Origin: Marchantia polymorpha subsp. ruderalis
Taxonomy: Eukaryota; Streptophyta; Marchantiopsida; Marchantiales; Marchantiaceae
NCBI GenBank assembly: GCA_037833965.1
Contig: AP031351.1
Span: 28,532,501 to 28,596,500 of the forward strand
DNA: 64,000 bases
Reading direction: 5' to 3'
Below the pieces are notes generated by a model, which saw only the letters and a program-made list of their open reading frames with translations, did not search any database and was not told the DNA's origin. Position 1 is the stretch's first letter, and each line of letters starts with the position of its first letter. Positions 18,506 through 57,960 of the stretch are shown piece after piece. Position numbers and translations under genes: made by a program.

Positions 18506-21357
18506 CTAGGTTCGTCCTCGTATGTGTTCTGCAGCTTTTCGTGCAAGTTGTCTCCGCTGGATTTTTCCAGATTCTCCGCGTGGTATAGCGTCAAGGAAAA
18601 AAACTCTTCTGATCTTCTTGTGAGGAGCAACCTGTGCACAACGAGCCCTCTGTGATTTAGTATCTACCTTTCGGCAATTGTAAACTCCCGAGAGGTATCG
18701 ACCTAGCTGAAATCGCTACCGTTCTTCTGTCAAAGCGAGCGAATGTCCATAGAAAGCTGAAGAGGAGTACAGCTGCGCCTAGATAATATTGACTTCAGAC
18801 AATTTGGGTAAATTTGAAGCTTTTGGAAAGAGATGGTACTACTACCTCCTTTGCGACAAAACTCGTAATTTCTGATTCTGTCAAAGAACCATTCGAATTC
18901 AGCACCACGCAAGCCACGGGGAGTTGTCCCGCTTCCTCGTCAGGTACTCTGCTTGCATCAGCCTTGTGTAAGCATACAGGCTAGAATAAAGTCAAGCGCT
19001 CAAGACTCATTCGTTCATATACAAAGGGGAGGGAGCTGAACCCTTTCCGAAGAGGAGGCTTTAGACTAATAGATGGACACCCATAATTTCAGTGCCTCTA
19101 TACGTGTGTGATTCAATCATGTGAGGTGGCACGAATGCTTACGGGACCACCACTGCCTCCGATATGTCAGGGTGCTGTATGAGCACTTTCTCGATTTCTG
19201 CCGGTGCTACCTGGGAAGACAGGACAATACTTTATCAAAAAGACAGTACAAGTCCAGCAGAAGTAGATATTCACCCAATCTTCTCGGATTGCAACGTTGG
19301 ATGGGCCTCATCTAACTTGATAATCACAAAGATGTACGAAACAGATTCTTCACACTTCATTTTCAATGAATTTCACTTCCTCTAGACTATTCATAAAACA
19401 AACAGCTATACATATAAGTCGGGAAGACTGCAAAAACCCACCTGGTATGCTTTGTACTTGATCAACTCTTTAATGCGATCCAGTATAAACAAAGCGCCTG
19501 TCTCAGTGAAATAAGCCAAGTCTCCTGTATGCAGCCAACCGTCTGCATCTATGGTAGCAGAGGTGGCCTCTGGATCATTCACATAACCTGATAACATATG
19601 CACTATGAGCGTCAGGGTCTTACAGTGTCTGAAGCTCCGATTGAAGCTTCTGTGCAGGCGTGCAGATTTTCTGTATTTACGGTGATTCCATGAACTCACT
19701 ATGTCGAGCTTGAAGTATCGAATTTGCAGAAAAATCTAAACCTCAAGAAGGGTTAAAATTTGTCACCTTTCATGACCTGGGGTCCTCGTATGCAAAGTTC
19801 ACCTTCTCCACGAGGAGGGAGGGATTTACCAGTTCCCACCTCGATAATCTTCGCCTCTATGTTCGGAATCAAGTATCCGACGGATCCATAAGGAGCAACA
19901 GGGACATTTGGTGTATGGTTTGATGCACATATCACGCTCACAGTCTCCGTCATGCCGTAACCCTGTACATACCAATATCAGCTCTTTAATTCTCACAAGG
20001 AAGATCATTGATGAAAATCCGACAGGACTGTGTATTCTGAACTTGTGAACATCCAATTTAACACCATCGAAAGAGCTGCCTCCTTTTGGTCGGTTTCTGC
20101 TAGACTAACCCTTTCTCTTCATGTCTCTGTTCTCTGCGGTAAATTCCAAAACTCCAATATGACCCACGGCATGGTGCAAGCATAGACTGTTCCCGTGGCT
20201 GAACCTCGTTCAATCAAGGGCTCTAAATAGGAGATAGGTGTGTGCAGAGGTGAAATCAATATACTTGATGGGGAGAGATTGAAGTAGAACTGATAAGATG
20301 CATATGGTCTAACCTGGGAGAATTTGATGTCAGCAAATCGTGATCGGAAGTCTTCAATGACGCCTTTGGATAGAGAAGCTCCCCCGCATCCGATCATTTT
20401 AAGGGAACTGAGGTCAAACTTTTCGACGATGGGCTGTTTAGCCAAGGCGACAATGATGGGTGGAACAGCTGGGATGCTGGTACAGCGAAATTTCTCAATA
20501 GCGTGGAGCATGCCAACGAAGTCAAACTTGTTCAAAACCACGTTTGTGCATCCCCATCTCAGCTGTAATCCTGCCACTGTACATAGTCCATAGATGTGGA
20601 ACAAGGGTATGGGAACCAAGGAGATTAAGTCGTGGTACGCGAGACATTCACTGGCAGGATCTCGGGAGTCCTCTTCAAATTTGTTCATGGCTGCCTGAAG
20701 AGCGATGAAATTCCTGTGGGTTAGAATGACTCCTTTAGTCACTCCTGTGGTCCCAGATGAGAACATCAATGCCGCCGTGTCGCTTTGCAAAACTTGGACC
20801 TCTGAAAAATCTGTTGAATCCCCAGCGAGCAGGATTGTAAAAGGCGTGTACGACAGGTCCGCCAGCTCTCTCTGTCTTCCGACATCTCCATACAGAATCA
20901 GAACCATACCATAATCCCTCACCTTTTCTACATATTGGGCAGAGGTGATAGCGAATTGAGCACCCGATAGCCTCATTTGATTCGCAATCTCGTGTTTGGA
21001 GCTGAGTGGGTTCATGGTGGTAACGATGGCACCCAGTGACACTATTGCCAGAAACATGATTGGATAATAGATTGTATTGTTAAGCAGAATTACCACAACG
21101 TTGCCCTTCCTCAGGCCAAGATCGGCCAGACCATTGGCCACCCTCTTGACCGTTTCGTGAAGTTCACCATATGTGACGAATTCCTCTGTCTCAGAATCGA
21201 TCAAAATCTTCTTGCTTGCAAACTCAGGCTTGTAATAAGCTGGAGAGAAGAGATATGTGACCAGATTCATATTAGCCTGTTCTGGAAGGTGCACTTGAGG
21301 CCAAGGACCGTGGTATGTGGCATGTTCTGCATCGTAGAAACCTTTCTGTTGACCCAT
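18506..21357 (-). CDS. 4CL-like: 4-coumarate-CoA ligase-like acyl-activating enzyme
   Basis: Six exons on the minus strand: 21357-20314, 19962-19767, 19587-19442, 19210-19143, 18948-18846, 18631-18506; 560 residues. ANL-superfamily enzyme that adenylates a carboxylate and transfers it to CoA; for true 4CL the substrate is a hydroxycinnamate of the phenylpropanoid pathway. Visible: box I SSGTTGVTKGV (200-210), GYGMTET (349-355), box II GEGELCIRGP (about 400-409), DGWLHTGDLAY, the hinge DRIKELIKYKAYQVAPAEIE and the catalytic lysine in ESGKIQRRQL (Lys542). The C-terminus AAEHIRGRT lacks a peroxisomal SKL-type tail. The open frame extends 48 codons upstream, but the Met at 21357 matches family length. 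Exact substrate (4CL versus 4CL-like) cannot be told from sequence. Confidence 0.93.
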
Positions 21358-23040
21358 CGTTGCCAAACAACCTTTCGAGCCAAGCTGCAGTACAACAAGA
21401 CACCTGCTGATTAGATGTTTCAGACATGTTACAAAGCTCGAACATAATGTGCTTCGATCCTTCGATCCGGAAAAAAATTTATCTGAAAGAACATTCTTCA
21501 AACAACTGTTTCAGATTACCGTATCACGGACCCATACTTGGCATGAATCAGTTTTGACATAGAAGGGGTGATGATTGCTAATTCTATCAAGGTAAGTCTG
21601 GCTTAAACAGGATATCAAGGTGGTGTCGGCAGAAGTGGATCACATGACAGACACATTCTCATTGGCACCAGTATCCCCGAGTAATAACAGCTCTAAATTC
21701 ATAAAGCTAGAAAAGATACACCAGGGAAAATCACTTTGATGGATCTGACCTGAATCATTGCAGTGCTAGTGCTAGTTTCTTAGTAAGTAAGTTTCTAAAG
21801 GACGAACCTTTTACATGGATGATGCGCGGCTTACTTCTGTAAATCAAGAGTTAACCTTGAACCACTGGATACTACCTGCCTAGTGAGCACCAATTCATCT
21901 CTTCCTTGATTCATGGCAAGAGAGCTAATTTCCAGTAAAGAGCCGATTTCTGGAAAAAGTGGATTCGACAGATGACCGAAGAGCCGGTGGAAGTTTAGAT
22001 ATGCTATAGAGGTAAGCACTAATTGTGTTATCGCTTGTTGTCAAATCTGCAGGTGTAGATGTAACACAGCAATATTCCTCGTGCGAGCGGTACGTTGAAC
22101 TATTCACCCTTTCAATTGCGTGCAATCGCGTGCAAAATTTGATCCAAGAAGGCTTGGACTTTAGAAAAAAAAGGGAAACTTATCACCTCGAACAAATGTA
22201 AAAAATCAAACGGAATTATAATACCAGTTAAGATATAATCTCGGTAACTATTGTTAAGTGTGCTAAACAATTTTAGATGTGAAAAAGTGCTATGGCGGGA
22301 CATCGCGGAAGGGAAAACAACATGTTCAGAAGGAAGGCTCCATCTACCTAACAACAGCGCATTTCAATTCAAAGCCTTGTTATGGCGTGATATTGTCCCA
22401 GGCTAAGGTTTATGCTCTAAGGAAATTTCTTACTATCATCTCCTACAGATAGTAGTCAACAAAGACCTTGTGATTCAACATGTACCAACACATATGTAAA
22501 CGAAATCTACGAAAATCCAGCTATTTCTCTTCAATTGGCTCTGCCGTGAACAATGTTATTCCACCTGTTGATAGTTCTGTTCTATGTCGTCAACAAGGAG
22601 AAAATTGGAGTCAGCTGCATCCCATGATATATTTTCCACCTCTGCCTAAAATTTTTTCGGCAATACAAAAAACTCTGTAAGAACAAAATCCCCAATACAA
22701 TACTCGCGCAATGATGTCCAAAATTAATATCGAAATAAGTTTTCCCCCAATTCCCCTTTGCTATGGCGACTGATCAAACTAGCATGCTGCTCATAATCGA
22801 AGAGGGTGTCCAATTCCGCAGAGTCCGGGAGGTTACGGCATCACACACTGAGAAAGAAAACGGGGAACAAAGTCTTCACAAGCTGTTCGTTCTTCCGATA
22901 CTCATACACGATGGAGGCGAAAAAAATGTAATCACGCAGGATTAAAGTCCACGGAATCGACGTCTCAAAATTCCACTCCGAGCGCGTGAGCTGCGGGAAA
23001 TCCACAAACTCGACAACGCACACAATCCACGAATGCAAAC
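21358..23040. other. 5' flank of the ligase and unassigned intergenic DNA
   Basis: Contains the promoter side of the minus-strand ligase gene. Short frames only (up to about 80 codons), without recognisable domains. Confidence 0.5.
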
Positions 23041-45193: not shown

Positions 45194-47438
45194 CGGGTTC
45201 GGATGATTTTCCTGCAGGAGATGAAAATCGACGAGTCAACACAAGCCTTGCAGCAAGCAATGCCGGACATTGAAGAGCGACTCTGACAGCCTTTTGCTGC
45301 CAGAATCTCGAGAAAGCTACAACACATGTTTTCAGCCGGAATTCCACTCTCTCACAGCCACGAGCGAGCTTGCGTTCCAATTTGCTCAACGAGAAACCTG
45401 CGCAGAACCTCTAGACATAACCTCGTCCCAAATTGTTTCGAATTACTTGTTTGGAGCGCAGTCGATCGATTTTCGCCTCGGCCAGTCAACCAGCGAGCGA
45501 GCGAGCGAGCTCGTTCATTCCTGCTGCCCGGAATTGAATCGAATTGGATCAAATTGAAGAGAATTCTCCGTGTCGCCCGAGAAGGAATCGATTGCCTGCA
45601 CGCGCACGCACACGCCTCCGCTCTCTTTCTGAGACACAACACCAACAAACGATGTCAGACTGCGGAGCTCGAGAGAGAATCTGGCCGAATCTGAGCCGCA
45701 CATTCTCCAACTCCTTGGGAATTGATTGCGCGCATGGCGCACCACTTACGCGTCTCTGCGTTGAGGCTCGAGCGAAATCGGCACATTTCGTTCCTTCCTT
45801 CGTCCCTTCGTCCAATGTCCTTTCAGACAACGATCGTACGACGATCGAGACTCGCGTTATACGCTCGTATCGTATACTCATCGTATTTCCGGAGGTACAG
45901 GTGGAGGGAGAAACCAATCCTAGTCATCATCGACCTCCACTCACGCCACGTCACGGCCGAAGAAGGTCAGTCTATCGCAGATCCTTTTTAATAGTAGTTA
46001 TCATAAAAAAACTATATTATATTTTGAATTTGAATACCATTTTTTTATTTTGATTTATTTTTTTTATTGGTTAAAAAACTATTATTATATTCATATAAAC
46101 TATCATGTCAATAATAAACGGTTCTAAAATCATTTTTTAATTACGCAAGTATTTCCATTCAGTTTGTTTTATTTTGCTTTTCAGAGTTCGCGACGCGACT
46201 TTGATCGTGTCGGGACGTCGCGGAATACACTGCGGTCAACTTTGCTACCGATTCTTCGAGTCTTGCCTCGTTTGCGGTCTGGTTCTGAGGTTGAGTCGAG
46301 TTGTCTTTTGTTTGGTGCTTCTAGCGTCCACGTCATCGAGGAACATTCGCAGCAAGCGAGACATTCGGAGCGCATTTTTTGGAATCTTCTTTACAGCTGC
46401 TTTGATTCTCGTAGCTAGACAGGAAGTAGGCAGGAAGGGTTTAGGCGTCCGTTGCTGGAATTCTGATGCATTCACTGTTACATGCACAGGCTCTCAGAAG
46501 AAATCCCAGGGAACAAAGTTTCATTCCAATGTATTCCAGCTGATACGATCCAATTTGAATGGACATTCCGTGCGGTTAATTGCAAAACTAGAGTCTGATT
46601 ATTCACAACAGTCATATTTAAAGCACCCATGTTAGAATGGTGGTCGGGAGTATACATATTGTGATTACGTTGATGAAAGTGAATGGGCACTTTTTTGAGT
46701 ATGGTGTTGTGTGCCTTGATCACATTAGTCAAATGAAATCCTGAAGGAATAAAGATGATTTTTAATTTAAGATTTAAATTTAAACAATTCACGGCTGGAT
46801 CTTATATATGTTTCGTGTCTTCTGAATTGTCATTCTACACAAGTTTCAGGCAAAATCTGAGTCACATTTCGGGCCCGCTGTAGTAGAGTATAGTTCACAT
46901 GATCAGTTAGAATATACTGCTGACGAAGTTTCCTGATGGCGGCACGGTGAACTTAGAGAGCAGAATTTGTGTATGAACGAGTAACCCTGACACCTCCTCT
47001 AGGTACAGAGAAATGAGGTTACAGATGTCAATGCGATGCCTGATACATGTTTCGACCAGGGTAGGGGCAAACAGTTCAAAGGTCAACAATCATAATGAAG
47101 AAGCGAGCACAGCTGTGTTCGTGGGATTTGAAATGTCAATTATGCGAGGGTACAAACCCAAGGAAGAATGATAAGATTACTGTTACACTATGGACAGACC
47201 TCATCACGTATGGCCATATGATACAAAATGAAATCTACAAGGAAGGGCCGAGATAATGGTACAGAATCTAGACCATGATAATCTAGACTTGATACTTCAG
47301 ACTTGTCTGTGGACACTTGGCAGCACGGGTCACCAGACCTACAACTGGACTCCATCTGCTGTGTCACAAGAATATGAGTCTAAAAAATGCTACTCTACAA
47401 GCATACAGTAATATACAGCCGCCCCATGACTGGCCTGG
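45194..47438. other. 5' flank of the phosphatase and spacer to the CRSH-TPR gene
   Basis: Contains the phosphatase promoter side (45194-45960, GC-balanced, GAGCGAGC run near 45490-45512), a short AT-rich block (45985-46160) and unassigned DNA. The 153-codon frame on plus 46174-46635 has no recognisable domain and no splice partner, so it is not called. The last bases before 47439 are the 3'UTR of the next minus-strand gene. Confidence 0.45.
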
Positions 47439-50400
47439 TTACCTATCAATTTGGCTGGATACAGCGACGAAGGGTATCCTCAAGCGACTTTCTGATCCGA
47501 TTTCTTTACTTCTAACAGCCACTGCTGTCTTCTTTTCTTTCTCCATGTCACCTGATTCAGGCTCACTTCTCCACGCTCGATCCGCTACATCTGGCCTCAG
47601 AGAAGCTGGACTCTTCTTTCGAGAAGCACGTTCGACTTGAAACTCCTTCTTCCGAGACTCGAATGTGCGCCGCTTCACTCGACTTTTCTTCTTGTCCAGT
47701 ATTGCTGCTTGCTGATACAGCTCCTGGGCGACTTCGAAGTTGCCCAAAGTATCTTCCACAACAGCCAGTTCCTGAAAATTTCGTGGCTTCGTGAGAGTCA
47801 CATTCACAAACTGCGGCAACACATACACACGTTCTATTCGCCGTATTCCTCGAACAAGTCAGATAATTCTTCTTTCGAGAGGTCATAGCAAGGTTCGTTG
47901 CATAGCTAATTAGCTATATCTCAACTCTATACATAGTGTCCAAATCAGTCTTGGGGCATAAATCGATAACGGTGTTTGATTTTCAGGTTACATGAATTAT
48001 TGTTCGACTCCTCTACTATCATCCATAAACACAATTCTTCAGCGTGGCGGGCCAAACATACCATCAGAGATGCAGCATTCTCAGGTTCTATCGCTAGAGC
48101 GACTAGTAACAATCTTTGTGCACTCTCCAGGTTCCCACATTTCCTTTCCATGTGCGCATAGGCCTGGACAGAAATCAGAGAAAATCGCACAAGTTTACCA
48201 CTGAGTTAGTAACTAAAGCAGATAGTAACGAAACCTTGTCTGCAGTTCAGTCTTAACCTTTCACCATAATATATAATGCTTCAAGGAAACTACACATAAT
48301 ATTAGAGCGGCCCCATATCTTTGAAGATTCCGCCAAGTAAGATATCGTCCAAGATCATTCAAGAACAACGAACCTGTAGACATAGCACGCTCTCGGGATT
48401 GGCACCTAAACCTCGTTCAAAAAGAATCCTAGCTTCAGCGAAGTTTCCAGATTCTTGTTCCAGAATAGCCCAGGACTGCACGCAGATGATAGACAAAGTC
48501 AGTGACTATACAAAGTTAGGTTCGACCTTCTCATACTGATAAAAAGTATCCCACATCACAAACATTCTTCGACTTGTGTACATTAAACTAGGTCGAGGAC
48601 GTCTATGAAGTCCCCATCTAACCGAAGCATTGATTTATGACTTTGCACGTTTACAGAACAAGAGCTTAAGAGACAGATATACCCAATGCTGGCTGATCTC
48701 GTATGCTGCGGAGAATCTTAGATCTACTGCATGACAACCTCAGCCGAAATCTCTATACTGTCTATACACAAATTCTAGATGAGGACAGAACTTTTCGTCA
48801 GAAGTAAAAGCTTCAGGAGTAGCGTTTGCACTGACCTGCCAACAGTGGACATTGTTCGGATTTATCTCTGCACATTTCTTGTATAGATTTCTTGCTCTCA
48901 GTTTAGACTCGACAGTCCCTACGAGTCCTTCTTGATGAGCCCACGCCTGCATGTGTATGTGTAAGAGACTGAGAAAAAAACACATTCTTATGTCCAATAT
49001 CTACCCTACTCTGTGGAAAGAGATTGAGTGCAGGTCCACAGAATTTCTTCGACCTATTCTTCTCAGCACCATTCTATCAACTCAGCACTTTCTAGCCCTG
49101 AAATTTTTCATGAATCTCGCTTAATATGAATAAGGCGTTTCCTTCGTAACGACGTAAAATTGGTTGAAGTCACCTACAAGACGAAATTAGATTATGAAAA
49201 AGGTCCTACCGCTGGTGTCGACGGAGGTTGAGGACAATTACCTGTAATGTGTAGGTACTTTCGGGATCCACCTCCAACGCACGTCCAAAGAGCTGTCGCA
49301 TTTTCCTCCACTTCTTCTGACTAGCTTCAAACATAGCCCAAGCCTGACAGAAAACCCACGGAATCAGAAGGGCAACAGCATAACTTATGTTCTTTACTTT
49401 AAGAGATTATCTACGATTCGATTATCACTCAGCTTTACAGAAAGAAAGTTCACTCTCTGGAAACTCCAGCTTACATGCCAGCATTTCGCATCCTCTGGAT
49501 TTGCCTCAACAGATAACTTGAAGTGCGAACGAGCAGCAGCGTAATTGTGTGCTCGTGCTTCAAGTCGAGCTCGTGACTGATGTACGACGGCATTTCCAGG
49601 TTCGAGGTCCGCGGCTCGCTGTAAAAGAGCGCGGGCTTTGCTCCAGTTTCCAGTTCGTTCCTCTAGCATTGCCCATCCATGTAGTCCATATACTCCAGTG
49701 GCCCGTAGGCTGCTCTCTACCTCACCCTGGACCCAACGATAATAAGAAGAAGCAATGTCAATAGCTAGAACTTGCGAATGCCCTGCTGCTCAAAGCCACA
49801 GATCGGAGTCAATATTGGAGCAGTTCTATGTATCTAGAACCCTAATATAAACCAATTTAATACTCCAACTGATTCTTTGCCAACCGGTATTAAGAAAATT
49901 GTTTTTGTCCGAGACCATTCTTTAAAAACTGAGGCCACCCTTTTCATCACTAACACAAGAGAACTGCAGTGGAGTGTGAAGGGATTTCTCATACCTTTTG
50001 GCTTGCATTCAGCGACTCCATGAATAAGTATCTGGCTCTTTCTGGGTTTTGTACATGTGCCTCTAGAGTACCCCAGGCTTGAAGTGCTCTCACATAATCA
50101 ATGCCTAAATCTCCTTTCAATTTGAATTTGCGAATAGCCTGAGAGTACAAACCTCCTGCTGCCACCATGTCACCTGCAGCCATTCAATCAAACAAGTATT
50201 CATGAGCTCAGTCCGAAGCGTAAAGCTGCCTTGACATCTCAGACTGTAACAGGAGCTTAGAAGAATACATCATCTACAAGTGTGAAAAAGAAAAGGGTTA
50301 AAAACCCACCACACTTGCGCTCAAGGCTAGCACGATGTAGAATCACTTTGATGTTCTCTGGGTACTTCTTGGACAGCTGCCATTCATGCGGAACATAATT

Positions 50401-53400
50401 CATATTAGACTTTTCATGAATTTCAGAGATAATGATAGCTAGAAACGAGCGAGGCGTTTGTGAACGACAGAAACAGCACTTCAAATCCAGAATATCATCA
50501 TGCTCTCCATCCAGCACAACTGAATACAACGGAAGCTTTGAAAAGTGGGAACAAACTTTACCGTCATGATTATTTTGCGGGCTGATGCCTTATCCCCAGA
50601 GGCGAGGAAACGTCTGAAAGTTGATAAGTCTTCCTCAACTCTTTTGTCCGAGGACTCATCGATCTGAGCCGGCACTTTCAGCCCTTCAAGGTCAGCGTTT
50701 TTTACACTGCTTGGCCAGAGTGAAATGGATTCCTGAGTCTCTGACCAAGAATCAAGATCCTTTCTTGAGTTTGTGGTTGGGGTTGGTGCCAATGGTTTTT
50801 CTGGCAAGCGTAGGGGCTTGACTAAGCTTGGTTTCTGCTTGCCTGAACGGGCAGGAAGGCTGTCCCTGTTGGGATCACTCGTGTTGGTGCTAGGATTAAC
50901 CTGTATGCTTGTAATCAACTCTGCCTCATCCGAAGAGGGGATGGCATCAGACGTGTCCAACATATTTGACGGCACAACCTCTCCATCCATATCATGACTG
51001 CCCTCTGAGGAAGACTCGGCATGCAACTGATTGCTAACTTCAATGTCAGCTGACTTTCCCGAACCGCAAGTATCCAACTCGACCTCAAAATCGCCGCAAT
51101 TTCCAGAACCCAGGCATAACATTTCTGAAGAAGTATCCGTTATCTGCGGCAGTTTGGTGCCCAGTTGAGAGCTCACCTCCCTGTCAACCCCTGCAAGATT
51201 TTGCGCAATTTGAATCTGGAAAAGTTTTCAAAGAGGAGTTAGTCGTCAATCCCAGGAGAGAGGAGAGATGAAGTCGCGAAATCAGACCGAAGGAGTCAAG
51301 GTACTGTACCTGATGTCGAAATTTGCCAAACTCTTCGGCTGATACCGAGCCATCTGTGTTGAGGTCTACTATTCTCATGAGCTCCAAGGCATCCTCCTTA
51401 TCTGCTCCCAATTCATGAATCACGTCTCTGAACTCGTCGACACTTATAACTCCATCTTGATTTTTATCGAACATTTTGAAAATCTGGTCGTTCTCAGATA
51501 AGATCGGATCAGCTCCTTCCAGGCTCACGGCATTTCTAGCTATCTCACCGAATCTCGTGGCAGCAACATTCGCAGCAGCAACCATAATCATCTTGAGGTT
51601 CCTGACCTGCAAGTTTGGATTTGGGTCAATTACGGTCTTCATTGCAGAGACTAGACTTGAACACAACTCACCAGTAATCTGATGAAAGCAGAATTCATCA
51701 AAAGGTACAAGCGAAGACATTCTGCAAATACGTAATAGCTATCGTTTGCAAAGATGTTGAAAGGAACCAAAGTTGTGAAATTTGCTCTCAGATCTTCTTC
51801 TGCTTAAATAATCTGAAATTGAGAAACCATAAGGGACGAGCGAAAACCACAGCTACAAACCTGTTCTGGATCAGTTAATCCTCCTTTGTATAATGAGTGC
51901 GAAGCCTGGCCGGCCACGGCGTTCGTGTCCATTTCCACGGTGCGTATTTGGATCTCCATAGGAGGGCGCCACTCATTTTGATCAGACAGGTGTACAGCTA
52001 AGTGTAGACTTTCGTAACCATTCTGCTTAGGTTCGGCAATGTAATCTTTTAACCTTCCGGGTACCTCCTTCCAAATATGAGTGGCAACCTCCATAGCTCT
52101 GTAGCAACTTCTAATGCCGCGTTCTCTTTCTTCATCCGAATTACTTCCAGCTTTGGGTTCTAGAATCACACGAAGACCTAGGACATCAAATACTTCTTCG
52201 GGCTTCCTACCGTCCTTGAGAAGCTTCCTCATTGTGCTGAAACGACTTTTGTAACGACCTGTTATGGTAATGTTCTCAACCAACTCCTGCAACTCTTCGT
52301 CTCCTTGGAGTGCCGCGGACAACTGGTCTCTGCATTCATCCACAACCCCGCTTCCGTCCACCCAATGGCTCCTCAACCAGTTTTCGATGAAAGAATAAGA
52401 ATCCGGAAATAAGACTCTGAAACCGAGGTCTTCAAGTTCGAGGCTCATTGAACCCGTACCTATGGCGTGAGCTAGGGGTGCGTAAATCTGCATAGTCTCC
52501 AGGGCCAGAATCTGCTGTCGATACCTCGGATAGGCATGAATGTGGCGCATGGTATCCAGCCGACTTGCAAGCTCAACGACCACTGATCGGATGTCATGAA
52601 AGGCAAGGCAGAACTGTCTCAGGGCCTTGGAGTTTTCATCATCCAGGGTCTCCACACGAGAAGGGATGTGCCTCACCCGGGAGCAGTCATGCAGAAGGCG
52701 AGGTATGCTTCCTCCGAGAGTTTTTTCAATTACAGAGTAGCTGATTAGACCTGCATCGACTACTTCTCTCAGTAAACCGGTACTGATAACCTCAGCGTCC
52801 ATCTGCCACAAACACAGACTGTACGGATGAGCTGATTTCCCTCATTGCCTTGACAGACCTATAGCTCATTAATCATCACACCAAAAATACAAGCAACACC
52901 AGTTTCTAAACGTGAGCAACGAAAGCTACATATCATCGATTTCAGTAAGGGTTTGAACGAACCCCGAGATCGGCGAGAGTGTGGGCGACCGCGAGAGCTC
53001 TGCACAGTGGGGTTCGACCATCTACGTCTGCTGTTGGAGTGGCACTCTGCAGTGCCATCACCGAGAGCTTGAGAGCGCGCAGCAAAAGGTCCGAGTCACT
53101 ACTTCTCACCAATTCAGGAGGGAGCCTTCCAGCCAGGCCATCCCAAGCAGCAACGAGTTCCACCACCCTCCTCCCTCCAGGAAGCTCTGCAAGGGATGGG
53201 GGCCCTCGAGGACCATTCCGGACCCAATCGTCCTGCCCATTGGGTTCACTGGCAAAACTGACCCTGGGCACCTGATCTGCCACTTCGACGTCAAATACTT
53301 CATTGGTTAGACTAGCTGCCATGGATTCTGACCTACTTCCGGAGTAAGAGTCACTTCTCGCCGACTGAAACGAAGGTCCACCTTGGGAGGGGATCTCGGA

Positions 53401-54691
53401 GTCAGAGCAGACCTCCGCACTACTACTTTGTCTTCTTTGAATCTCGCTGGAACCGATTCCTTGGAGGCTAGACTCCAGCAAAGTTCGTTCAACTTCTTCA
53501 CGAGGAGCCCTGCCCTGGGAAACCTTAATATCGTCAATTTCTCTCGACACTTCGTCGTCGGACACCAAGCCCAGCTGGGTTTCCAAGTCAACCAAACCAT
53601 TGTTTCCAACGACCTGAACGCGCCTTCTGCGTTCCCCAGTGGGCTGCCTCCTGGGACGATCTCTACTGCGCCTTCCTCCATCATCTACTTCTCTAACCGC
53701 TGTTTGGGTCCCATTATTCAGGGCATCCTGTACACGGGGCTGCAGTTCTAATCCAGGCTTTCTCCCTTTTAACGACGTGCTGTTTTCTCCGTTCCGTCCA
53801 TTCTGCTTATTCGAGCTGTTCTGCGACCTGGACGACGTATCTGTCTTTATGAACGAGTAGGTCTTCACGAGGTTCACCTTGCTGTCTGCATAATTGGACT
53901 GGCACGCACCTCTCAAGGTTACAGACACCGAGTCCACATTGCCGTGACGCTCCCTAACATTGCTTCCTCTTCCCGACTTGAGCTGCGCGCAGACCAAGAC
54001 ACAAAAATAAGCAACCTGAACACTAATTGATCCAAGGCATCAGGCTGAGAGTCAGTTCATCTCTCCGAAAAAACACTCCGTGATGTAGACGCTTGCTGAA
54101 TTCCAGAGCAGACGGTGAACCAGAGAATCTGGCCTCGGTCTGTGTCCCACTGAAGCAATTGCCAGCTCCCTACAAACTAAGAAATTGTAGGGAGGGACCA
54201 TACAATACAAGGAGGCATTCCAGGTGAGGACCAATCAGATTAAACACAAAGAGGGTGACATAAATTAAGTCCGAGAATTGCACCCTGCGACAGGAAGACT
54301 ACGAGGAAGCGATTCTCCACATCCTCCCCAATGCATGCGGAAAAGCTCGAGGAAAAAACCATTGTCCAGAGGTCGCCTTTCGAAGTACGTACAGACATGT
54401 CCTCGGAATAATCTCAAAGGAGGCCTCTATTTTGAAAATTGAAAGTGGTTGCAGTGACATTCGGCACGCAAGCTCCCACTTTCACAACCATTTTTTCAAC
54501 AACCATCTCGAGAAATTTTCAGCACGGGAGGGCAAATTTTCGGGCACGGACGAGGGACAGACCGAAATACAGGCAGACAAACAGACAGACACTCTGAGTG
54601 ACAGGACGAGCACCTGAGGAGGGCCTGGTGGGCAGCAAGGCGCAGCGCTTTTAACATGCAGCGAACCCATGCTATTGGCACATGCCTTCAT
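47439..54691 (-). CDS. CRSH: Ca2+-regulated (p)ppGpp synthetase (CRSH) fused to a TPR/HAT repeat array
   Basis: Thirteen exons: 54691-54614, 53982-52963, 52802-51861, 51606-51310, 51215-50562, 50376-50310, 50173-49995, 49726-49475, 49343-49242, 48946-48836, 48475-48374, 48163-48062, 47771-47439; 1412 residues. Residues 27-290 are low-complexity, likely plastid targeting plus linker. A degenerate HD region follows: the hydrolase HD pair is absent, LLREVVDAGLI standing in its place. The synthetase has GRYKSRFSTMRKLLKDGRK (548-566), FDVLGLRVIL, NGYESLH (627-633) and MEIQIRT (648-654). Two intact EF-hands follow: DKNQDGVISVDE (727-738) and DLNTDGSVSAEE (761-772). Other plant CRSH proteins end soon after. 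Here the frame runs on through a 218-residue acidic/Ser-rich linker exon into about eight TPR/HAT repeats (about 998-1330) resembling HCF107-type repeats, and a basic tail. The first exon (78 nt) is the least sure. Confidence 0.85.
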
Positions 54692-56480
54692 CCCCGTTCG
54701 CTCCAAGCTCAGCGAAGATCAGCGAGCCCTGCAACGCGGGGCCTGGTAGCAGGGCCGACTCCAACCCCGCTCCGGAACAGCGTCAAATGGCCCCTACTCC
54801 CAAATCAACCACTCAAATCGATCGACGAATCTATCGGTAAATCAATCAATCAATCGGTCGATCAATCAATCGCCTACTCCGACGACCACTCCACACCGAC
54901 CCGGCAGTGCCAGCGCCAGCCCCAGGCGCTTCAGATCAGATCGCTCTCAGACAACGAATCGATCCCGAGCCAATCGGGCGAGAATGCTGCTCAACTGCAA
55001 GAGTATCTATGTACAGACAGCGACTATCATACAATCAAACTCCGGATTCCGTGTACGAAAAAGCGGAGGGAAAAAAAGGGGCCAAATCTCGTCGACTGCC
55101 TGGGCCCGAAAACACGCAAAAAATGGAGCGCAAATATCCGATCGAAACCTCGGGCCGCCTCCGAAAAAGCCTTATAGCTGCGGACCCCGAAGCATTAGAC
55201 CCCCCGCGATCGTACTCTCGGCAGGTCACGAGAGATTCGGGTACCGTCCACACTTGCCCCTGTTGACGGACGGCGACGGACGGATGGGCGACGGATGACG
55301 GATGACGGACCAGCGAGCCCTACTTCCGGCCTTGCTTCGCTCCTGGCCTCCCAGCCCAGAGGAGGGAGGGCCTTGCGGGGCAGAGAATCCTGTGGCCGCT
55401 CTGCAGCCGGACGCGTGGCGTTCATCTCCCCTGCCTAGGCCACTCATCTGAACCTACTTTCCGAGCCTCCCCGCCAGCTTCGGTCGCCGAACCCGTCCGT
55501 GACCTTTCATCTCCTTCGGATTGGTCTCGGTCGCCCCCACCCACCCGGGTCCACCTCTTCCCAGCCAATCCGCGTCCCCTTTAGGATTCTATTCTTCTCC
55601 TCCGTCAGACTCTTCGAGGCTTCGAGGCCTCGGCATGCGCCAGGTCACGCGTTCGACTCCCCGCTCCGAGTGACGACCAGAACGCCCCTCGCTTACATTA
55701 TCAAAAATTATCCCTCCAAAAAGACTCACAGTCCATTTCTGGCCTCTCACGGGATTTTAACGTATTCCCCAGCAGGTTATCGGGTACCTTAGGCCACGAA
55801 AGAGCTGCACGCCTTTTGGGGACGAATTTATTGCCGGCGTAGTTCTAACGAGGGAATAATGGAATTATGAAAATGTCCAAAATTATTACTTTACTCCAGA
55901 AGAGGATGCTGCGCTGAGTTAAGGAGAGTGGGGGAGGCTCGGGGGAGATCGGATTATGTGGCACGACGAGTAATACGTGGACTGATGGGGAGGACTGCCA
56001 GTGGATCGGAGCCAGGGCACGGATAGAGCTGATGTGGGGTCAGGGGTCGCTTTACGGATTGAGGTGTGAGTTGGACAAAGTCCGTTAGCTGTCTGATTGG
56101 GGAACTTGTCACAAGGGCGAGGAGAGGCGAGTTCGTGGTTCCTAGCGAGGAACGATCGCGACCACAGCTTCAGGAGGAGCCACGTCGACGCACGACGCGT
56201 CAGCCACACCCGGTTTCCAGACCCTCTCGGGCCGAGCGAAGTGTGCACCGGGGATTCGAGGCTCCGCGGCCGTCGGATTGGCGCTCAGGCTCGGCAGGCG
56301 CGGGCCGGAGGACAAATATCGAACTCCGGTGACGTGGTGCCGTCGAAGCAACACACGCCCCGAACACCAACGTGTGGAAATATTCCCGCCCCCGCTGAAC
56401 GTTTCACCGGCCGGATTTTACCTCTCCTGGATAACTGCATCCGTCACCGCTAAATGTGTTCTCGGCAGCTAGCCAGGTTC
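54692..56480 (-). promoter_or_regulatory. 5' flank of the CRSH-TPR gene, GC-rich
   Basis: GC-balanced to GC-rich sequence with repeated ATCGATC/AATCAATC motifs (54819-54882) and CGGACGGATGGG-type repeats (55264-55312). Frames on both strands overlap and look like chance. GC falls sharply after about 56480. Confidence 0.4.
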
Positions 56481-57960
56481 TATATCCGTCGATCATCTCT
56501 TGCAGTCATATCTTCAGCATTTCTGAACCATTTAAGGCCTCAATAAGATGAAACTTTTTTTGTATGGATATATCGCATCTCACCTTAAGATATGGCCGTC
56601 ACTATGTTTACATGTATAATTTTAAAATATACACTATATAAATAATTCATTATTTGATTTCGTATTATGTAGCCTCACTATGTTTACGTAACAATTCATT
56701 TAATGTCATATCTAGAGGTGTTCTTATTTGATTTCGTGTGCTCCTTGTTATTTATGATCAACTATTCAAATTTCACCACAACTTGGACTTGTATTCCAGA
56801 AAGAATTTTGAACGTGAATAGATCAGCTTTAAGTACAAGTAGGAGATAATATTTGGTGTGAACCATTTATGTTATAGTATTGCTACAGGCTTAGTCTAGT
56901 TGTTGTATCTTTGTTATAAAATTTAATCTACTCATTGAACTATTCTCGGATGAAGTTGAAATAATCATGCACGTTCTTGTATCATATCAAAGTAAATAAA
57001 GCAGTGATTGAACAATATGATGGATTTTATTCACGAATATCTACACAAAACTCTATGGTACATTACATGATTCATGATCTTCTCAAAGATCTTGTGTAGA
57101 TATTCCACTCCATTCAATCTTCATCAATTTCATTTGAATTTCCCAAAGTCTAAAAAGTCATAAAACAGTGAAAATTTTTGCTCTCCATTTGCATATGGTT
57201 TCATTTTGATGTTATTATACTATCATGATATGTTTCTAAAACTTTTCAATAACATCAAAATGAAACCATATGCAAATGGAGAGCAAAAGTTTTCACTGTT
57301 TTATGACTTTTTAGACTTTGGGAAATTCAAATGAAATTGATGAGGATTGAATGGAGTGGAATATCTACACAAGAAGTTCTGAGATACCTTTTTCCAAGTA
57401 GATGGTAACGCATTTCAAAATGATACAAAATTTATGCAATATAATTCTAATCCAAAGAGTTGGGATAATATTGGTGTTGAAAGAAAAAAAAATTATTTTA
57501 ACACTATCCAGATCTACTTTATGATTTCATATTTTTTATCATTATGTTGTCTTGTCATTTCTTAATTACACTATTTTTTAATCTTTACTCATTATATCAT
57601 ACTTGTATGTTCTAACTTTTGGATCATCAAATGACTATCACGATGTTTTAAGGTTCAAATTAAAATATTATGGTAACATGCATGAATACCCATAGGCAAT
57701 CAATGATGAACTTTACTTTTCTGAGCAAAAGATTATAAAGGTGTTGGTAATGATGATCATAAGGATGAAGTTTAAAATATTCATAATGAAACAAGGTGAT
57801 AAGGCATGCGATCCTAGTTTTGATGCTTGATCAATCTGCGATTCATAGTATTAAGGAGTTTCGTGAATTTTAAATTATGTTAATTGATAAATTGTTATCT
57901 GTAAACATCATCCTGAGACTTATGCTCTAGCATGCAGATTTATTCTTGTGATGAATAGAA
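56481..57960. other. AT-rich intergenic block
   Basis: Strongly AT-rich, no open frame of note. It resembles the 5.0-7.5 kb desert in composition and hosts a long inverted repeat (57091-57373). Confidence 0.6.
57091..57373. repeat. Long inverted repeat, 126-bp arms, 31-bp loop
   Basis: Arm 57091-57216 (starting CTTGTGTAGATATTCCACTC) and arm 57248-57373 are reverse complements with only two mismatches that I can see. A transcript would fold into a nearly perfect 126-bp duplex. No target-site duplication was recognised, so whether it is a MITE or a hairpin small-RNA locus is open. The motif ATATCTACACAA also occurs once more outside the arms, near 57039. Confidence 0.93.

Follow-up and report, generated by a model that had tools for sequence, protein, structure and literature searches.

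A predicted CRSH-type ppGpp synthetase gene continued by a HAT/TPR solenoid in the liverwort Marchantia polymorpha

Ito et al. 2017 reported that RSH4-class ppGpp synthetases of some green algae carry carboxy-terminal TPR domains, which Avilan et al. 2019 detected again (PMC6881373), and a review describes frequent gains of domains by algal RSH4 proteins (PMC10107265). Here we describe a predicted gene of the liverwort Marchantia polymorpha that is a land-plant member of this architecture, with the plant EF-hands retained: within a 64,000-nucleotide stretch of its genome (C2:28532501-28596500, hereinafter the window), the minus strand at 54691-47439 encodes a CRSH-type RSH4 that continues in one frame into a tandem array of HAT/TPR repeats. 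The resemblance to the algal proteins lies in an RSH4 catalytic part followed by C-terminal TPR-type repeats, here in one frame of the gene model; the liverwort protein differs in that it comes from a land plant, and it has two EF-hands and HAT-class repeats together, although the algal proteins may carry EF-hands too. With the land-plant RSH4/CRSH proteins (At3g17470 of Arabidopsis and OsCRSH1 of rice; PMC10107265) it shares a degenerate HD domain, a synthetase domain, two C-terminal EF-hands and the absence of TGS and ACT from the Pfam families listed, but it adds a linker of about 200 residues and a HAT/TPR solenoid plus basic tail of about 440 residues. RSH4 is further described in the same review as having no N-terminal extension beyond the transit peptide; the liverwort model, in contrast, has about 290 residues N-terminal of the degenerate HD domain.

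Two other groups of proteins invite comparison. Bacterial SAS-TPR synthetases (the DsRel family) consist of a synthetase and a C-terminal TPR domain that serves as a brake, and for the Treponema protein the authors speculate that the TPR domain binds components of transcription or translation (PMC10434055). These proteins, including DsRel and Tde-SAS of Treponema denticola, resemble the liverwort protein in having a ppGpp synthetase and then a TPR domain, but they are small two-domain synthetases with four TPRs and neither an HD domain nor EF-hands, whereas the HD_4 match at residues 347-482 of the liverwort protein sets it apart from the DsRel definition of a small synthetase without an HD domain; the two kinds of fusion are probably of separate origin. 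The characterised plastid HAT proteins NAC2, MAC1, MBB1 and HCF107 act on RNA (PMC8635915), and the liverwort protein, itself probably a plastid protein, resembles HCF107/Mbb1 of chloroplast RNA processing in its tandem HAT-type repeats. A first-pass annotation of the window had put this locus forward as a candidate for an undescribed system, a proposal overtaken by the algal RSH4 reports and the bacterial SAS-TPR synthetases; the liverwort fusion is an interesting land-plant example, not a new kind of system. Among the titles and abstract openings of openly licensed PMC papers we found no description of a liverwort CRSH-HAT protein, and we do not claim that it is undescribed.

Gene model and domain architecture

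The gene model was assembled by hand, exon by exon, from the DNA of one species. It has 13 exons (4239 nucleotides, 1412 residues, zero internal stops) and closes with a stop codon at its 47439 end; all 12 introns are GT-AG, and 11 of the 12 are in phase 0. Rebuilt in this way, it reproduces the coordinates, the 94-nucleotide GT-AG intron at 51309-51216 and the total of 1412 residues given by the first-pass annotation. In order, the predicted protein comprises an N-terminal extension, a degenerate hydrolase, an intact synthetase, two EF-hands, an acidic linker, about ten HAT/TPR repeats and a basic tail. Exon 1 and the start codon were placed by reading alone, with no homology support. The features are as follows, with the evidence for each in brackets:

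54614-54691, minus strand: exon 1, putative start with the first part of a possible transit peptide, residues 1-26 (gene model, residue composition)
52963-53982, minus strand: exon 2, long N-terminal extension and start of the degenerate HD domain, residues 27-366 (gene model, Pfam)
51861-52802, minus strand: exon 3, degenerate hydrolase and intact synthetase, residues 367-680 (gene model, Pfam, structure alignment)
51310-51606, minus strand: exon 4, two EF-hands, residues 681-779 (gene model, Pfam)
51216-51309, minus strand: intron 4, 94 nucleotides, the questioned join (gene model, splice matrix)
50562-51215, minus strand: exon 5, acidic Ser-rich linker and first half of repeat 1, residues 780-997 (open-frame test, Pfam)
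50377-50561, minus strand: intron 5, weakest splice signals in the gene (gene model, splice matrix)
50310-50376, minus strand: exon 6, second half of repeat 1, residues 998 on (gene model, Pfam of the joined peptide)
49995-50173, minus strand: exon 7, repeat region up to residue 1079 (gene model, Pfam)
49475-49726, minus strand: exon 8, two repeats, residues 1080-1163 (gene model, Pfam, repeat profile)
49242-49343, minus strand: exon 9, one 34-residue repeat, 1164-1197 (gene model, repeat profile)
48836-48946, minus strand: exon 10, one 37-residue repeat, 1198-1234, weak by profile (gene model, repeat profile)
48374-48475, minus strand: exon 11, one 34-residue repeat, 1235-1268 (gene model, repeat profile)
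48062-48163, minus strand: exon 12, one 34-residue repeat, 1269-1302 (gene model, repeat profile)
47439-47771, minus strand: exon 13, last repeat, basic tail and stop codon (gene model, repeat profile, charge count)

Pfam searches of the predicted protein (E up to 0.1; the 25 best of 28 families considered) recovered HD_4 at residues 347-482 (E 4.3e-27), RelA_SpoT at residues 548-673 (E 3e-27), EF-hand_1 in two stretches C-terminal of the synthetase, and many TPR/HAT models over the C-terminal part; neither TGS nor ACT was among these 25 best families. The best solved relatives of the enzyme part are bacterial Rel proteins, with 310 residues aligned to 7ohg_A (E 2.7e-54), which we take to be Thermus Rel. 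Under that identification the match would agree with published work that places Rsh1 and Rsh4 together with deinococcal Rel, a grouping with strong Bayesian and weak likelihood support (PMC3153485). Aligned with 7ohg_A, the liverwort protein retains GYESLH (bacterial GYQSLH) together with the ITGR glycine, the FDVLGLR aspartate and the MEIQIRT glutamate, and its HD metal-ligand positions read R, RE and S, that is, the ligands are replaced. Given the roles that we presume for the HD-ligand and synthetase-motif residues, the intact synthetase motifs and replaced HD ligands predict a synthetase without hydrolase activity. The EF loops lie at residues 727-738 (DKNQDGVISVDE) and 761-772 (DLNTDGSVSAEE), both canonical by eye. 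The sequence accordingly combines the features of RSH4/CRSH, namely the synthetase motifs, an HD domain devoid of its ligands, two EF-hands and no TGS or ACT among the families shown, and the enzyme part is predicted to be a synthetase-only RSH4 (CRSH). Upstream, the first 100 residues include 15 basic, 5 acidic and 22 Ser/Thr residues, and Pfam gave zero matches to residues 1-366 at E up to 5.

The C-terminal part parses by hand into ten repeat units. Units 1 to 3 and the one in exon 10 score weakly by profile; exons 9 to 12 hold one repeat apiece, of 34 to 37 residues. The repeats of the first-pass annotation are thus upheld, and its count of about eight was slightly low. Their closest solved relatives in the PDB are an engineered TPR protein and, after it, proteins of the Suppressor-of-forked and Crooked neck type; the Crooked neck matches and the HAT_PRP39 models of Pfam show the repeats to be of the HAT class. 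The basic tail (residues 1337-1412) has 19 K/R against 13 D/E. A K/R-rich run at the end of the last repeat and tail (KKKSRVKRR...SRKK, within 47439-47771) could be an RNA-binding patch or a nuclear signal.

The joins at introns 4 and 5

Exon 5, which follows the questioned intron 4, is open throughout its 218 codons, while each of the five remaining frames contains between 6 and 17 stops. Dinucleotide shuffling left it fully open in the coding frame in 0 of 5000 trials, so the open frame is beyond chance; the earlier statement that this exon lacks a stop is borne out, and no in-frame stop occurs at the exon 4-5 junction of the gene model. A codon likelihood trained on the remaining exons ranks the coding frame above both alternative forward frames in six of seven segments of exon 5; in the second segment a different frame is marginally better. 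When splice sites were ranked with a small leave-one-out matrix from the 11 other introns, the donor of intron 4 came 16th of 455 and its acceptor 131st of 575. The C-terminal stretch presumed for Arabidopsis CRSH aligns over the intron 4 junction to residue 804 with few identities past it, and serves as a lead, not a test. Exon 5 alone had zero Pfam matches at E up to 5. Among the candidates scored in the genome (241 Mb, 9 contigs), it occurs a single time, as does the repeat part.

On the far side of exon 5, the peptide made by joining it to exon 6 (residues 966-1050) matches four families, HAT_PRP39_C, TPR_14, PknG_TPR and TPR_6, with E-values of 0.021 to 0.16. No Pfam family was matched by the retained-intron 5 reading, whose frame ends at 50483-50481 (1023 residues), or by the upward reading of exon 6, and none of seven shuffled 966-1050 controls matched a TPR/HAT family. 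Since the exon 5-6 join alone completes repeat 1, this repeat is most likely split by intron 5, so that exon 5, besides coming after the EF-hands, would form part of the repeat region. In the gene model (open frame, Pfam), then, the annotated join of a complete CRSH in one frame to a HAT/TPR solenoid and basic tail stands, and the locus very probably holds one fused coding gene.

Several points weigh against this reading. The fusion is predicted from a gene model in the DNA of one species. If intron 4 is retained, the frame stays open for 41 codons and stops at 51186-51184, ending CRSH at 820 residues without the repeats, and such a short isoform beside the fused protein is quite possible. The intron 5 sites rank worst in the gene (donor 173 of 455, acceptor 204 of 575). 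All four matches to repeat 1 fall below the curated Pfam cut-offs, and three of the seven shuffled controls match unrelated families at E 0.1 to 0.21; a single E-value is therefore close to noise, and the case depends on four models pointing to the same fold. Profiles built from the later repeats missed the first three units and scored the exon 10 unit poorly, which counts against naming these strong repeats. Finally, proteins starting at M996 (end of exon 5) or M1022 (exon 7) would have basic N-termini, with 5 D/E versus 10 K/R and 4 D/E versus 7 K/R per 50 residues, respectively.

Some of these points could be taken to indicate two products from one locus, a short CRSH formed when intron 4 is retained or the transcript is polyadenylated within it, and a repeat protein initiated internally, at exon 5 or beyond, with no fused protein accumulating. 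The 820-residue product would suit this, as angiosperm CRSH ends soon after the EF-hands, and so would the acceptor of intron 4 at rank 131, the lower-ranking sites of intron 5, the in-frame ATG at 51122 and the basic N-termini at M996 and M1022. However, that ATG, the first of four in-frame ATGs in exon 5 (three of them within the linker), lies 61 nucleotides from the retained-intron stop, which leaves no space for a 3' end and a promoter between the halves unless the units overlap. A search for five poly(A)-like motifs across 51310-50170 gave one match only, and on the spacing, ATG and poly(A)-motif evidence we judge a separate promoter or 3' end between the CRSH and repeat halves unlikely. 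The linker starts M811, M855 and M864 are acidic (11, 9 and 7 D/E per 50 residues), so a separate repeat protein begun at any of them would have no transit-like peptide, and a start at M996 or M1022 would truncate repeat 1. With the codon statistics of exon 5 also favouring its coding frame, we consider the two-product alternative improbable. Still more remote is an artefact in which a wrong choice of exons merges two unrelated adjacent genes: the exons were indeed picked by hand from DNA alone, but the uniform GT-AG introns, the near-constant phase 0, the 1412 codons without a stop, the completion of repeat 1 by the exon 5-6 join only and the single occurrence of exon 5 in the genome all speak against it.

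The solenoid and the HCF107/Mbb1 family

The first-pass annotation had likened the repeats to HCF107/Mbb1. As a type this holds, given the HAT-class matches; an identity, which the annotation itself had not asserted, we judge unlikely because a better candidate lies on another contig. A genome search with the repeat part gave 13 matches, nine in the gene itself and four elsewhere (two at C6:0.21 Mb and one each at C7:11.44 Mb and C7:13.64 Mb). Measured against a presumed HCF107 sequence, by pairwise identities and not by a tree, the C6 gene (L017, C6:206500-214500) shows 38%, 39% and 65% identity over 292, 146 and 51 positions in its three best segments, whereas the fused repeats show 29% over 388 positions. 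L017 is therefore the probable HCF107 candidate orthologue of this genome, and the fused solenoid is probably not HCF107 but seems a more distant relative. L017 is spread over several exons. By their open frames, the HAT-like match at C7:11.44 Mb reads as Crooked neck and the one at C7:13.64 Mb as PRPF6; both were set aside.

At least three RSH loci were found in the genome, one of them of the CRSH type. The other two lie about 0.2 Mb apart on C7 (L018 at 9.13-9.14 Mb and L019 at 9.34 Mb), have intact HD motifs (GLLHDTLDD, GLLHDTVED) and read, by motif only, as RSH2/3-like and RSH1-like, respectively; none of the 13 repeat-part matches falls at either of them (near 9.14 and 9.34 Mb). An auxin response factor exon of this genome aligns over 72 residues with PDB chain 6sdg_A, which we take to be M. 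polymorpha ARF2; 70 of these are the same, with a mismatch at either end.

Possible roles of the fused protein

As a whole, we favour with reasonable but not high confidence one nuclear gene that encodes a Ca2+-activated plastid RSH4 (CRSH) whose C-terminal HAT/TPR solenoid restrains the enzyme, docks it, or both. The joined architecture would most naturally be read as the first-pass annotation suggested, with Ca2+-triggered ppGpp synthesis coupled to a binding scaffold. The fused protein would be imported into the plastid, where binding of Ca2+ to the EF-hands would switch on ppGpp synthesis, as in angiosperm CRSH. The solenoid would occupy the position that in long RSHs belongs to the TGS/ACT regulatory tail and, by analogy with the C-terminal domains of other RSH and SAS-TPR proteins, might restrain the enzyme and/or dock it on the plastid gene-expression machinery, so that ppGpp would be made there. 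That the solenoid is a protein-docking or brake module is a tentative assignment, and it counts against the favoured account that both roles are drawn from analogy alone.

The main functional rival accepts the fused protein and takes the HAT domain for an HCF107-like RNA-binding module that tethers ppGpp synthesis to particular plastid transcripts. The HAT class of the repeats (Crooked neck and PRP39 matches) and the action on RNA of the plastid HAT proteins cited above would agree with this, as would the net charge of the repeat domain, +11 and near the +15 of the presumed HCF107 repeats, although charge is weak evidence. The repeats are, however, probably not the HCF107 orthologue, and the solved structures closest to them are those of an engineered TPR protein and of scaffold proteins of splicing or polyadenylation. 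We thus regard this tethering as unlikely, and direct binding of RNA by the solenoid likewise. Similarly doubtful, in our view, is a broader proposal in which RSH4 with EF-hands and a HAT/TPR solenoid would be an architecture of ancient green-lineage origin that liverworts have kept and vascular plants have lost, with the solenoid binding plastid transcripts or the transcription/translation machinery such that a pulse of stromal Ca2+ would make ppGpp locally on chosen targets and not stroma-wide.

To our knowledge, it is an open question how ppGpp influences the expression of plastid genes and whether it is synthesised at particular sites. Under the favoured reading, a land plant with a single CRSH-type gene, whose product has its own binding module, would serve as a model in which the protein partners or RNAs of the solenoid would indicate the site of Ca2+-triggered ppGpp synthesis. 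If the repeats are homologous to the algal ones, the TPR tail of algal RSH4 would have reached land plants.

In the surroundings of the gene, scans of the window for Rfam families (at gathering scores) and for tRNAs gave zero matches, no repeats of at least 24 nucleotides were found within 46500-56500, and two scans of viral contigs found no relatives of the gene. Elsewhere in the window, an open frame of 463 amino acids on the minus strand (20122-21510) matches the AMP-binding enzyme family (PF00501, E 1.6e-57).

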